NCBI GenBank assembly: GCA_041228335.1
Contig: CP166130.1
Span: 1,202,638 to 1,266,637, forward strand
Direction: 5' to 3'
DNA length: 64,000 nucleotides
From: Alphaproteobacteria bacterium LSUCC0684
GTDB lineage: Bacteria; Pseudomonadota; Alphaproteobacteria; Puniceispirillales; UBA1172
Made by a program: the position numbers and the translations under genes. The notes beneath the pieces are model-generated. The model had not been told where the DNA came from and made no database searches. It saw only the letters and a list, made by a program, of their open reading frames with translations. Of the stretch, positions 8,617 through 13,449 are shown one piece after another; position 1 is the first letter of the stretch, and the number at the start of each line of letters is the position of its first letter.

Positions 8617-10374
8617 TTAATATCTGGCTTCGTTAAGTTCCCAGTACATGTCCGTACCCTTGACCTTGTCGTTTGTCTCAGCCAGATCGACGGGTAGAAG
8701 GCCATTCAAAGCACGGACTTTTATATTCGCCCCGGCTTGAAGCAACGCCTTTATATTCTCAGGCGTGCCATCTCTCGCTGCATAATGAAGCGGCGTGCGG
8801 CGAAGTTTGTCCCGAACATTGATATCTAACCCAGCCTTGACTAATGCCTCGATGGTTTGTGGTGTACCTAATCCCGCTGCCCTATGAAGCGGGGTTTGAC
8901 CATTCTTGTTGCGGGCCTCGATATCTGCCCCGACCTTGAGAAGCGCGCGGATGGTTTGTGCTGTGCCTCCTACCGCCGCATGATGAAGCGGAGTCCAGCC
9001 ATCCTTGTCCCAACTCTCTATAACAGCCCCAGCCTCGGCAAGCGTAATAATATTTTGTGACGTGCCGGATACCGCAGCATAATGCAATGGGGTGACGCCA
9101 CCCTTGTCGTGGGCGTTGACCTCTGCTCCCTCTTTGATTAGGAAACGAATATTTTGTGACGTGCCTGATTTAGCCGCATAATGAAGCGGGGTGTGGCCAT
9201 ATTTGTTACGAGCATTAATATCTGCCTTAGCCTCGATAAGCGCACGGATTATCTCGAGCGCACCTAATCCCGCCGCCCAATGCAGTGGGGTGGCACCATC
9301 CCTTTCGCGAGAATTTACATCCGCTCCGATATTGACAAGTACGTGGATATGCTCTTGCGTGCCGAATGCTGCAGCCCAATGAAGTAGGGTGGCATCATCA
9401 TTGTCGCGGGCATTTACATCCGCTCCAACTTTAATGAGTTCCTTGATTGTCTCTGGTTTGCCTTCACCTGCCGCCTTATGTAGCGGAGTGGCGCCATACT
9501 TGTCGCGTGCATTGATATTAGCTCCAACCTCGACAAGAGGCCGGATGTTTTCAGGTGTGCCGTGTTGTGCTACGAAATGAAGAGGGGTGAGGTCATTCAT
9601 GTCTCGGGCGTTGACTTCCGCCCCTATATTGACAAGTGTACGGATGTTCTCGGGTGTACCAACTACCGCCGCATCATAAAGTGGCGTGGCGCCATACTTA
9701 TCGCGGGCGTTAACATCTGCCCCGGCTTCGACAAGCGTACGGATATTTTCGGGCATATCTGATCCCGCCGCCCTATGAAGCGGGGTGGCGCCATTTTCTG
9801 CCCGCGCTTCGATCTCCGCACCAGCCTCAATGAGTGCGCGGATATTCTCAGGCATACCGTACTCCGCCGCATCATGAAGCGGGGTGTTCCGATACTTGTC
9901 TCGGACTTCGATCTCTGCCCCGGCCTCGATGAGTGCACGGATGTTCTCAGGCGTGCCAAATTGTGCCGCCCGATGAAGTGGGGTTATGCCACCACCGGCA
10001 CGGGCCTCAATCTTTGCCCCGGCTTAGATGAGAGTACGGATATTCTCGGGAATGCCTGATTCAGCCGCCCAATGTAGCGGGGTTGAGCCAAACAGACTGC
10101 GCGCCTCGATCTTCGCCCCCGCCTTGATGAGTGCTAAAATGGTCTCGGGCGTTCCATGTCCAGCCGCATAATGCAAGGGGGTGGCACCATTCTTGCCTTG
10201 GACGTTGACGTTGGCGCCGTTTGTGAGTTCTTGCCGTAGCGTTTCAATGCTGGCGCTTTTCCACCATTCCCTGCTGCAGAGATTGCCGCAGGATTCCGCC
10301 TTTGCCGCCACCGGCAGCATGAGTATCGGGGCCATGAACGCCATTACCAGCGTCAGTTTCAAGAGTGATCGCAT
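8617..10374 (-). pseudogene. Secreted ankyrin-repeat protein with in-frame stop (ank1)
   Basis: One continuous frame of 586 codons is broken by a single TAA at 10026-10024 (codon 117), leaving an N-terminal piece (10374-10024) and a long downstream frame (9855-8617 from its first ATG). The N-terminus has a signal peptide ending VAAKAE, then the motif CGNLC followed by WW. About fifteen 33-residue ankyrin repeats follow (core pattern G.TPLH.AA..G.PENI..L...GA.I.AR), ending in LLPVDLAE and a terminal ELNEARY. The stop replaces the codon that in sister repeats is Glu or Lys (ALIEAGA, ALIKAGA). Either the gene is inactivated, the stop is read through, or this is a sequence error. It is a clear paralogue of the gene at 12181-13365. 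A CtrA-like box lies 68 bases upstream. Confidence 0.85.
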
Positions 10375-10427
10375 CTCCCCCCTCCTTTGTTCTTTTTGTT
10401 GATCCGTGTGGATCTTTTGATCAAGGG

Positions 10428-10456
10428 TAGCACGGGGATGATTAAGAAATAGTTAA
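10428..10456 (-). promoter_or_regulatory. CtrA-like box and GCTA element upstream of ank1
   Basis: On the minus strand TTAACTATTTCTTAA (10456-10442) matches the CtrA full site TTAA-N7-TTAA. Exactly ten bases later GCTA (10431-10428) resembles the alphaproteobacterial -10 element GCTANAWC. The box lies 68 bases upstream of the ank1 ATG. The same arrangement with the same spacing occurs upstream of ank2. CtrA is the cell-cycle and motility response regulator of the class; binding here is inferred from sequence. Confidence 0.65.
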
Positions 10457-10469
10457 GGGAAAAGGCGTG

Positions 10470-10720
10470 GTTCAGGCCGCCGGAGAAGAAGCCGCCCGCA
10501 CCCGCAAAAGAAGCTCTCCGGGCTGCTGGAAAAGAAGCATTCACGCAATCACAAAAGATGCCCCCTGCCCCCGAGCACCCGCAAAAGAAGAAAAACGGGC
10601 CGCTGGAAAAGAAGCCGCCCGCGCTAACGCAAAAGAAGCTCTCCGGGCCGCCGGAAAAGAAGCCGCCCGCGCTAACGCAACCTCGCAACCCGAGCACCTG
10701 CAAAAGAAGCACCCCGCGCA
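10470..10720. repeat. Degenerate minisatellite between ank1 promoter and erpA
   Basis: Imperfect repeats of roughly 48 bases carry the pattern CCGGAAAAGAAGCCGCCCGC followed by GCTAACGCAAAAGAAGCTC. The best copies lie at about 10608-10655 and 10656-10690, with more decayed copies to the left. Open frames cross it on both strands, but they encode only low-complexity Ala/Glu/Lys or Gly/Phe repeats without a plausible start. I treat it as non-coding repeat DNA. Confidence 0.7.
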
Positions 10721-10722
10721 AC

Positions 10723-10751
10723 TTGCGGCCGATGGCCCGAAGCATTATATT
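10723..10751 (+). promoter_or_regulatory. Putative promoter of erpA-xthA
   Basis: TTGCGG (10723-10728) and TATATT (10746-10751) are separated by 17 bases, a good housekeeping promoter match. Transcription would start near 10758, giving a leader of about 28 bases before the erpA ATG. No Fe-S-responsive operator was recognised by eye. Confidence 0.5.
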
Positions 10752-10785
10752 CAATATATCACCAATCTCAGGATCGTGACGCGCC

Positions 10786-11148
10786 ATGGATGACATCACC
10801 ACTTCACCACGCACCGATTTCCGCCTGACGCCTCAGGCGATCGACCGGGTTTCCTTCCTGCTCGAACAGGAAGAGGGCGACGTGTTCCGTGTCGCCGTTC
10901 TGGGCGGCGGATGCAGCGGGTTCCAGTACAGTTTCAGCATCGATGACGCCCCGGCCGAAGATGACCAGGTGCTCAACCTCGCCGATAGCGGCGGTAAACC
11001 TGTCCGTGTCGTGGTCGATGAGATGTCGCTCGAATTTCTCGCCGGCAGTGAACTTGACTATGTGCAGGAACTGATCGGCAGTTATTTCCAGGTCTCAAAC
11101 CCGAACGCGACCGCCTCCTGCGGATGTGGAACGTCCTTTGCCATCTGA
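10786..11148 (+). CDS. erpA: A-type iron-sulfur carrier protein ErpA
   Basis: This A-type carrier delivers Fe-S clusters to apo-enzymes. The 120-residue protein has the three conserved ligands: Cys43 in GGGCSGFQY, and Cys112 and Cys114 in the C-terminal CGCGTSF. The order erpA-xthA next to dgt-argS is common in alphaproteobacteria, which supports erpA rather than iscA or sufA. The downstream xthA overlaps it by 23 bases. In the host it would be needed for IlvD and other Fe-S enzymes, including those encoded in this window. Confidence 0.92.
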   Translation: MDDITTSPRTDFRLTPQAIDRVSFLLEQEEGDVFRVAVLGGGCSGFQYSFSIDDAPAEDDQVLNLADSGGKPVRVVVDEMSLEFLAGSELDYVQELIGSYFQVSNPNATASCGCGTSFAI

Positions 11149-11953
11149 TCACGTCACCATCGCCAGCTGGAATGTCAATTCCATCAAGGTGCGTGCCCCG
11201 CAGGTGGTGGACTGGCTCAAGACCTCGGGCACCGATATCCTCTTCATGCAGGAGATCAAATGCGTCGATGACGCCTTCCCGCGGGAGATGTTCGAGGCGG
11301 CCGGATATACCTGCCATGTCCATGGCCAGAAAACCTATAACGGCGTTGCCATCGCAACCCGGATACCGCTTGAGGATATCCGCCGCGGCCTGCCCGATGC
11401 CCCTGATCAGGGAAGTGAGGAACAGGCGCGTTTCATTTCAGCCAGGCTGGGCGATGTCACGCTTGCGGGGCTCTACATGCCGAACGGCAACCCGACGCTG
11501 GCCGATGACGGCTCAATCCATCCGAAACTTTCCTATAAACTCGACTGGATGAAGAAACTCGCCGAATATGCCGACGGGCTCAACCAGGCGCGGCGGCCGG
11601 TGATCTTCCTCGGTGATTTCAATATCATCCCCGGGGCGATGGATGCCTGGGATATCGACGCCTGGAAGGGCGATGCCCTGCACCACCCCGAAACGCTGGC
11701 GCTGTTCCGGCGGATGTGCTGGCTCGGCTATACCGATGCCTTCCGTGGCCTTGACCCGAACGCCATCGCCTACAGTTTCTGGGATTATCAGGGCGGTGCC
11801 TGGCAGAAAGATCACGGCATCCGGATCGACCATATCCTCGCCAATGCCGAGGCCATGGACCGGATGCGCGAAGCCGGAATCGACAAAACCCCGCGCGGCA
11901 ATGACCGCGCCAGCGACCATACCCCTGTCTGGTGCCGCCTCACCACCGGATGA
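11126..11953 (+). CDS. xthA: Exodeoxyribonuclease III
   Basis: A Mg-dependent AP endonuclease and 3'-5' exonuclease of base-excision repair. The 275-residue protein carries the exonuclease III landmarks: SWNVNSIK (residue about 14), FMQEIKC with the metal-binding Glu, GLYMPNGN, the GDFNI motif and the terminal SDHTPVW with the catalytic His. Translation probably starts at GTG 11126 inside the end of erpA, giving MERPLPSDHVTIASWN; an overlap suggests coupling. Length is standard for the family. Confidence 0.95.
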   Translation: MERPLPSDHVTIASWNVNSIKVRAPQVVDWLKTSGTDILFMQEIKCVDDAFPREMFEAAGYTCHVHGQKTYNGVAIATRIPLEDIRRGLPDAPDQGSEEQARFISARLGDVTLAGLYMPNGNPTLADDGSIHPKLSYKLDWMKKLAEYADGLNQARRPVIFLGDFNIIPGAMDAWDIDAWKGDALHHPETLALFRRMCWLGYTDAFRGLDPNAIAYSFWDYQGGAWQKDHGIRIDHILANAEAMDRMREAGIDKTPRGNDRASDHTPVWCRLTTG

Positions 11954-12180
11954 GGGTGGGGTTTTGATGCGGGGGCCACGGTGCGGGGTCGATGTGGTGG
12001 GCACGGTGCGGGGGTCGATGCGGGGGGGGGCCACGGTGTGGGGGGCTTGGTAAGTGAGGGTGCCCGCCCCTGACGTGACCCGATGTGATCGGGACAATGC
12101 GGTGGGGCGAGGCAAGTGATGGGGTGCCCGCCCCTGACGTGACCTGATGTGGCGGGCGAGGCAAGCGATGGGGTGCGGGG
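11954..12180. repeat. G-rich repeat spacer 3' of the second ankyrin gene
   Basis: The spacer between xthA and ank2 consists of G-rich imperfect repeats. GCCCGCCCCTGACGTGACC occurs at about 12062 and again at about 12124. GGCAAG.GATGGGGTG occurs at about 12112 and 12160, and CCACGGTG with GGGGTCGATG recurs between 11978 and 12035. A run of ten G sits near 12023. No gene is visible. The composition and the position 3' of an ankyrin gene mirror the spacer at 8449-8616. Confidence 0.7.
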
Positions 12181-13365
12181 TCAATGTCGGGCTTCGTTAA
12201 GTTTTCGGTACATATCCGAGCCCTTTATTTCGCCTCCAAACTTGACATTTCCCTCAACCAGATCCACGGGTAGAAGGTCATCTTCGGTCCGTGCCCGAAT
12301 ATCTGCTCCGGCCTCGACAAGTGTGCTTATGTTTTCGGGCTTGCCTGCCGCCGCCGCCCTATGAAGCGGGGTCCAGCCATCCTGGTCACGGGCTTCGATA
12401 TCCGCCCTCGCCTCGATGAGTGCACGGATATTCTCGGGCATGTATGATTCCGCCGCCCTATGAAGCGGGGTATGGCCATTTTTGGTCCGCGCCCTAATAT
12501 CTGCCCCGGCCTTGATGAGTTTACATATGGGTTTAAGCGTGTTAGAAAACGCAGCCAAATGAAGCGGGGTGCAGCCATTCTTATCTCGGGCATTGACTTC
12601 CGCCCCGCTCTTAATGAGTGCGATGATGTTGCTGGAGCCACGCCTCGCCGCCCAATGAAGCGGAGTGGCTCCATTCTTGTCACGGACTTCGGTCTTCCCT
12701 CCGACTTCGATAAGCATTCTGATATCCACAGGTGTGCCGTCTTCTGCCGCACTATGAAGAGGAGTACCGCCATTCTCGTTGTCGACGGCATTGATATCCG
12801 CTCCGGCTTCGACAAGTGTGCGGATGTTTTGGGGTCTGCCTCTGAAGAGTAACCAATGAATCGCCACTGCCGACTTATGAAGCGGGGTGTATCCATCTTT
12901 ATCTTGTGCATTGATCTCTGCTCCAGCCTCAATAAGTGCACTAATGTTATGAGGTTTGCTATAAGCGGCAGCACGATGAAGGGGAGTAAGCCCTTGTTTA
13001 TCTTTGACATTAACATTTGCACCAGTCTCAACAAGCGCAAGAATGTTCTGAGGCCTGCCTTGCCAAGCCGCCCAATGAAGCGGGGTCCGGCCTTTATTGT
13101 CCCGCGCCTCAATCTCCGCGCCGGAACCGACCAGCGCTGAAATTGCCGCAGGCGTGCCCTTGCGGGCCGCCCAATGCAGCGCCGTCATCCCGCGTTCATC
13201 GCGGGCATTGACCGCGGCGCCGAGGGCAAGCTCCTTTTCAAGCGCCACCACGTCTGCCGTGTTCCACCATTTCCTGTCGCAAAGATTGCCGCAATCCGCT
13301 GCCGCCGCGCCCGGACCTGCCGGAAGCAATGCCGACGCCAGCGCCATGGCGAAAACATATCGCAT
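12181..13365 (-). CDS. Secreted ankyrin-repeat protein (ank2)
   Basis: This 394-residue protein is intact and paralogous to ank1. A signal peptide (residues 1-23, ending AAAAD) is followed by CGNLCDRKWW. About ten ankyrin repeats follow with the core G.TPLH.AA and the turn VEAGADI.AR, and a conserved end LLPVDLVEGN then KLNEARH. Ankyrin repeats bind other proteins; with a signal peptide it should act in the periplasm or outside the cell. One repeat (around residues 155-165, SAVAIHWLLFRGRP) has an extra few residues. The conserved paired cysteines and tryptophans after the signal peptide look like a defined N-terminal cap. Its function is unknown. Confidence 0.88.
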   Translation of the reverse strand: MRYVFAMALASALLPAGPGAAAADCGNLCDRKWWNTADVVALEKELALGAAVNARDERGMTALHWAARKGTPAAISALVGSGAEIEARDNKGRTPLHWAAWQGRPQNILALVETGANVNVKDKQGLTPLHRAAAYSKPHNISALIEAGAEINAQDKDGYTPLHKSAVAIHWLLFRGRPQNIRTLVEAGADINAVDNENGGTPLHSAAEDGTPVDIRMLIEVGGKTEVRDKNGATPLHWAARRGSSNIIALIKSGAEVNARDKNGCTPLHLAAFSNTLKPICKLIKAGADIRARTKNGHTPLHRAAESYMPENIRALIEARADIEARDQDGWTPLHRAAAAGKPENISTLVEAGADIRARTEDDLLPVDLVEGNVKFGGEIKGSDMYRKLNEARH

Positions 13366-13420
13366 CGCCCCATCCTCCCATTGATACCCGGCCTGATGTG
13401 CCGAGTTTGCCGGCCAAGAC

Positions 13421-13449
13421 TAGCACAAGAACGGTTAATAAATGGTTAA
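13421..13449 (-). promoter_or_regulatory. CtrA-like box and GCTA element upstream of ank2
   Basis: On the minus strand TTAACCATTTATTAAC (13449-13434) is a complete match to the CtrA consensus TTAA-N7-TTAAC. Ten bases after its second TTAA comes GCTAGTC, starting with GCTA at 13424-13421. The box lies 70 bases before the ank2 ATG. The architecture repeats that of ank1 base for base in spacing while the surrounding sequence has diverged, which argues for selection. Confidence 0.72.

Follow-up and report, generated by a model that had tools for sequence, protein, structure and literature searches.

Three ankyrin-repeat genes of Alphaproteobacteria bacterium LSUCC0684 share a promoter layout in which a full TTAA-N7-TTAA box stands at a fixed distance from a TANNNT hexamer. 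Two of them, ank1 and ank2, lie in the window (the whole stretch of 64,000 nucleotides that was analyzed), and the third, ank3, is located at 2561742, 1.35 Mb away. The shared element is probably a CtrA-activated promoter of the sigma-70 type, CtrA activation being the best explanation of three features: (i) TANNNT hexamers show a spacing peak downstream of the box, (ii) the genome encodes CtrA, and (iii) among the genomes compared, the same module precedes the histidine kinase gene adjacent to ctrA and the fliO gene. The CtrA layout of the ankyrin promoters suggests that the encoded proteins are made in the same program as swimming and cell-type genes.

The sequence-only reading described TTAA-N7-TTAA, then ten bases, then GCTA in front of ank1 and ank2, and this arrangement is present at both genes, with a gap of ten in each case. 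On the minus strand, the ank2 promoter reads TTAACCATTTATTAAC CGTTCTTGT GCTA (box 13449-13435), and the ank1 promoter reads TTAACTATTTCTTAAT CATCCCCGT GCTA (box 10456-10442). The distances to the ATG, given in that reading as 70 and 68 bases, are 69 bases for ank2 and 67 bases for ank1 when measured from the box end. As was also stated there, the flanks have diverged, and the core shared by ank1 and ank2 is more conserved. The proposed -10 pattern GCTANAWC agrees in its first four letters, whereas the remainder does not match (GCTACCCT, GCTAGTCT). The element common to the promoters is GC-TANNNT; GCTANAWC was dropped for TANNNT, which is present in all perfect cases, and GCTA is better read as a GC lead-in followed by the TA of the -10 hexamer. 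In full, the promoters are TTAA-ctatttc-TTAA-tcatccccgtgc-TACCCT for ank1 and TTAA-ccattta-TTAA-ccgttcttgtgc-TAGTCT for ank2, and the box is predicted from the sequence to cover the -35 region at a fixed distance from the -10 hexamer (Table 1). The full TTAA-N7-TTAA site precedes ank1, ank2, and ank3, but not ank4 (at 1005877), which has the degenerate form TTAA-N7-TTCA (TTAATCATTTTTTCA) with TACCTT 11 bases downstream. Since the TANNNT hexamer was first recognized in the ankyrin promoters, it is descriptive there, and the independent tests are the genome-wide peak at offset 11 and the relatives.

Table 1. Ankyrin genes of the window and their predicted promoter elements
Feature	Position in window	Strand	Basis
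ank1: signal peptide, CGNLC-WW segment, ankyrin repeats; in-frame stop inside	8617..10374	-	ORF + Pfam
In-frame TAA at codon 117, splitting ank1	10024..10026	-	sequence
ank2: intact, 394 aa, signal peptide, CGNLC-WW segment, ankyrin repeats	12181..13365	-	ORF + Pfam
CtrA-type box of ank1, TTAACTATTTCTTAA	10442..10456	-	sequence + genome pattern search
CtrA-type box of ank2, TTAACCATTTATTAA	13435..13449	-	sequence + genome pattern search
Predicted -10 hexamer TACCCT of ank1, GC before, 12 bases past box	10424..10429	-	sequence + spacing peak
Predicted -10 hexamer TAGTCT of ank2, GC before, 12 bases past box	13417..13422	-	sequence + spacing peak

The ank products are plainly ankyrin-repeat proteins by Pfam; against the Ank effector families of NCBIfam they scored far below the cut-off, and the similarity reflects the repeats only. 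The window was originally said to contain two secreted ankyrin genes. The ank2 gene is intact, but ank1 is interrupted by the in-frame TAA, after which the rest of the frame, 468 codons, has no further stop before its end; thus, ank1 may have become a pseudogene or a split gene, or the TAA may be an error in the sequence. The description of the family as secreted is also true in part: judged by a hydrophobic N-terminus, ank1, ank2, and ank4 encode a signal peptide, whereas ank3 has none.

A search of the single-contig 2.70-Mb genome for TTAA-N7-TTAA-N{8,12}-GCTA returned four matches, all of them with a gap of exactly 10. Three of the four precede ankyrin genes (ank1, ank2, and ank3); the fourth, at 999619, is upstream of a gene for a 104-aa membrane protein. 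With a stricter pattern and up to three mismatches allowed, the three ankyrin sites took the top ranks in the genome, and none of them matched when GCTA was displaced by one base as a spacing control. The bare TTAA-N7-TTAA box is not in excess genome-wide (39 vs. 45 for the backward control), and the pattern without the TANNNT requirement shows no excess over the backward control in 12 genomes (54 vs. 52). Thus, the box alone proves nothing, and the spacing to the -10 hexamer is the special part. The 39 boxes, taken in both orientations, provide 78 oriented sites, of which 14 carry TANNNT at offset 11 and 7 carry it at offset 12. The background is about 2.5 per nearby offset, by which about 5 of these 21 sites are expected by chance; the excess has P ~7e-8, or ~5e-6 without the three ankyrin sites. 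None of the 14 offset-11 sites is next to an ankyrin gene, and the spacing peak is therefore independent of the pair from which the layout was discovered. The peak implies a predicted start site ~39 bases downstream of the 5' end of the box, near window position 13410 for ank2 and 10417 for ank1. In dinucleotide shuffles, TTAA-N7-TTAA arose within 200 bases upstream in ~0.2% of cases, and the box with TANNNT at 11-12 in ~0.005%; the shuffle probability of the box with its -10 hexamer was 2e-4 or less for each gene, including the ankyrin genes of the relatives G003 and G002.

The relatives compared belong to other genera of the same family, and the set included no other genome of this genus. 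The perfect module was found upstream of secreted ankyrin genes in two of these genera, G003 (two of its four pattern matches) and G002 (one of its three). The spacers of these modules differ from that of ank2 (TTTAGACT, TTTAGGCT), whereas the layout is identical. Another ankyrin gene of G002, C50, has only a degenerate site. In another family of the order, ankyrin genes encoding a related CLRLCD segment have a half-site at most and no full box; the homologues that share the promoter belong to G003 and G002, within the family. A scan of named genomes with ank2 returned distant ankyrin proteins only. The module also stands at fliO in four to five relatives (FliO identified by Pfam), which supports the motility control suggested at the outset, although the fliO gene of this genome has no full site. 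CtrA was not found in two relatives, the complete G004 (single contig, 99%) and G007 (88%), and both have zero pattern matches. No CtrA orthologue was found in G003 (assembly 76% complete) despite its four matches; it is here that the evidence conflicts most, and the incomplete assembly is the likely but unproven cause. In G002 and G005, CtrA is present and FliP was not found, so that CtrA may be kept there without a flagellum.

The genome does encode a ctrA gene, on whose presence the sequence-only reading chiefly depended. By its best match to Caulobacter CtrA, the gene at 1106646-1107326 is clearly marked as the counterpart: its product is 50% identical to the Caulobacter query sequence overall and 66% identical in the DNA-binding domain, where KIIDVFICKLRKKL is intact; Asp51 is retained as well. 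In NCBIfam, the protein matches NF045991 over the full length with 292 bits, the best of 98 families (the next scores 179 bits). This score is below the curated cut-off of 350, and the family name, RespRegCtrARhodob, suggests a narrower group. The ctrA neighborhood includes dksA and a gene for a 249-aa histidine-kinase-like protein. The module was observed upstream of the histidine kinase gene beside ctrA in all six genomes with a readable locus, and this position, together with fliO, makes the tie to CtrA firmer than the consensus does.

ChpT (PF10090) was found in none of the 12 family genomes, though most of them have CtrA and the Caulobacter control was positive. The best CckA match in this genome scored 88 bits where the cut-off is 1000, with a model that was non-specific in controls. 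With these two results and the lack of CtrA in a complete relative, control by the cell cycle, which had been offered together with motility, is not supported; control of motility or of surface functions is the better fit, given that relatives have this module at fliO. The kinase gene beside dksA and ctrA (G000:C1:1108410) encodes a soluble histidine-kinase-like protein with an H-DVNN motif, and in this lineage it could take the place of ChpT or CckA.

It is unlikely that a different regulator of the OmpR type, or a sigma factor whose -35 element is rich in TTAA, uses the promoter instead of CtrA. Several other OmpR-like regulators are encoded in the genome (23-34% identity to Caulobacter CtrA), and both the ankyrin modules of G003 and the lack of a recognized CckA-ChpT pair agree with such a reader, but the consensus, the half-site spacing, and the position all agree with published CtrA sites, and CtrA of this genome has a conserved DNA-binding domain. 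The module is also linked to the ctrA-adjacent kinase gene and to fliO, and two relatives in which CtrA went undetected, G004 and G007, have no pattern matches.

Alternatively, the promoter might be bound by CtrA but merely inherited by duplication, with no role particular to ankyrin function. We consider this quite improbable: ank1 and ank2 are indeed paralogues separated by 3 kb, their proteins are ~50% identical, and their upstream regions are related, but the distant ank3 has a diverged spacer and flanks, and the G003 and G002 genes, which are not closely related to ank2, combine other spacers with the same layout. A chance likeness in AT-rich intergenic DNA, for which the missing genome-wide enrichment of the bare box could be cited, is very improbable in view of the shuffle probabilities at three genes of this genome and three of the relatives, the fixed spacing, and the negative off-by-one control.

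Under CtrA activation, phosphorylated CtrA would bind TTAA-N7-TTAA over the -35 region, with the 5' end of the box at about -39, and would recruit RNA polymerase to the TANNNT hexamer that follows the box after 11 or 12 bases. The module may serve up to ~20 promoters in this genome, some of them by chance. Apart from the ankyrin genes, the box with TANNNT at 11-12 precedes genes encoding a secreted Sel1-repeat protein and an outer-membrane efflux-type protein, rpoN, a dprA-like gene, the kinase gene beside ctrA, and genes for three similar lipoprotein-like proteins with a lipobox-like VLAAC (G000 783931, 468049, 1012662), one of which was checked against Pfam and had no match. The list of targets suits a surface and motility program. 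The ankyrin proteins would probably be produced when motility and surface genes are expressed, in a single cell type or phase, e.g., a dispersal state, and the exported ankyrin solenoids are probably binding proteins of the periplasm or the surface. More tentatively, CtrA might run, without ChpT, a surface and interaction program of exported ankyrin, Sel1, and lipoprotein-like proteins that persists where the flagellum was lost (G002), a possibility about which we are rather doubtful.

In Caulobacter, CtrA-activated promoters have the full TTAA-N7-TTAA at -35 (PMC11264516), and ctrA P2 has it at -39 (PMC4287350). The promoters described here resemble those of C. crescentus in the half-sites, the 7-base spacing, the placement over -35 with the 5' end near -39, and the -10 element downstream, and a flagellar CtrA-type target is likewise found in the relatives. 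Unlike in C. crescentus, the targets include exported repeat proteins, the -10 element is TANNNT and not the full GCTANAWC, and neither ChpT nor a clear CckA was found here; thus, the CtrA input pathway differs or is unrecognized. Non-essential CtrA systems for motility have been described in Magnetospirillum, Rhodospirillum, and Dinoroseobacter shibae (summarized in PMC4046655). The present system is similar to these in that CtrA can be absent, as it is from the complete G004, and in that a flagellar gene, fliO, is among the conserved targets of relatives, but G002 keeps CtrA and the ankyrin module though FliP was not found. Ankyrin effectors are known from Rickettsiales and Legionella, some of them secreted by type I or type IV secretion, and Rickettsiales also have CtrA. 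The proteins described here share the ankyrin repeats with these effectors, whereas their signal peptides are of the Sec type.

Among the papers listed by the literature search, none was found to describe CtrA control of ankyrin genes, most subscription journals being outside its reach; the literature on CtrA in Rickettsiales yielded no link to ankyrin genes, and nothing was found on SAR116 with CtrA. Except in the well-studied intracellular groups, little is known about what exported ankyrin proteins do in alphaproteobacteria. The link to CtrA would predict when these proteins are made and with what, giving a testable handle on them. It would also extend the CtrA regulon by a class of targets in a lineage where no ChpT is recognizable, and it bears on the evolution of the CtrA pathway.

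Two repeat tracts lie in the same part of the window: tandem 24/48-base repeats (AAAAGAAGCCGCCCGCGCTAACGC) at 10580-10680, separating the ank1 promoter from the next gene, and G-rich short tandem repeats at 11966-12044, downstream of an exonuclease III-like gene.
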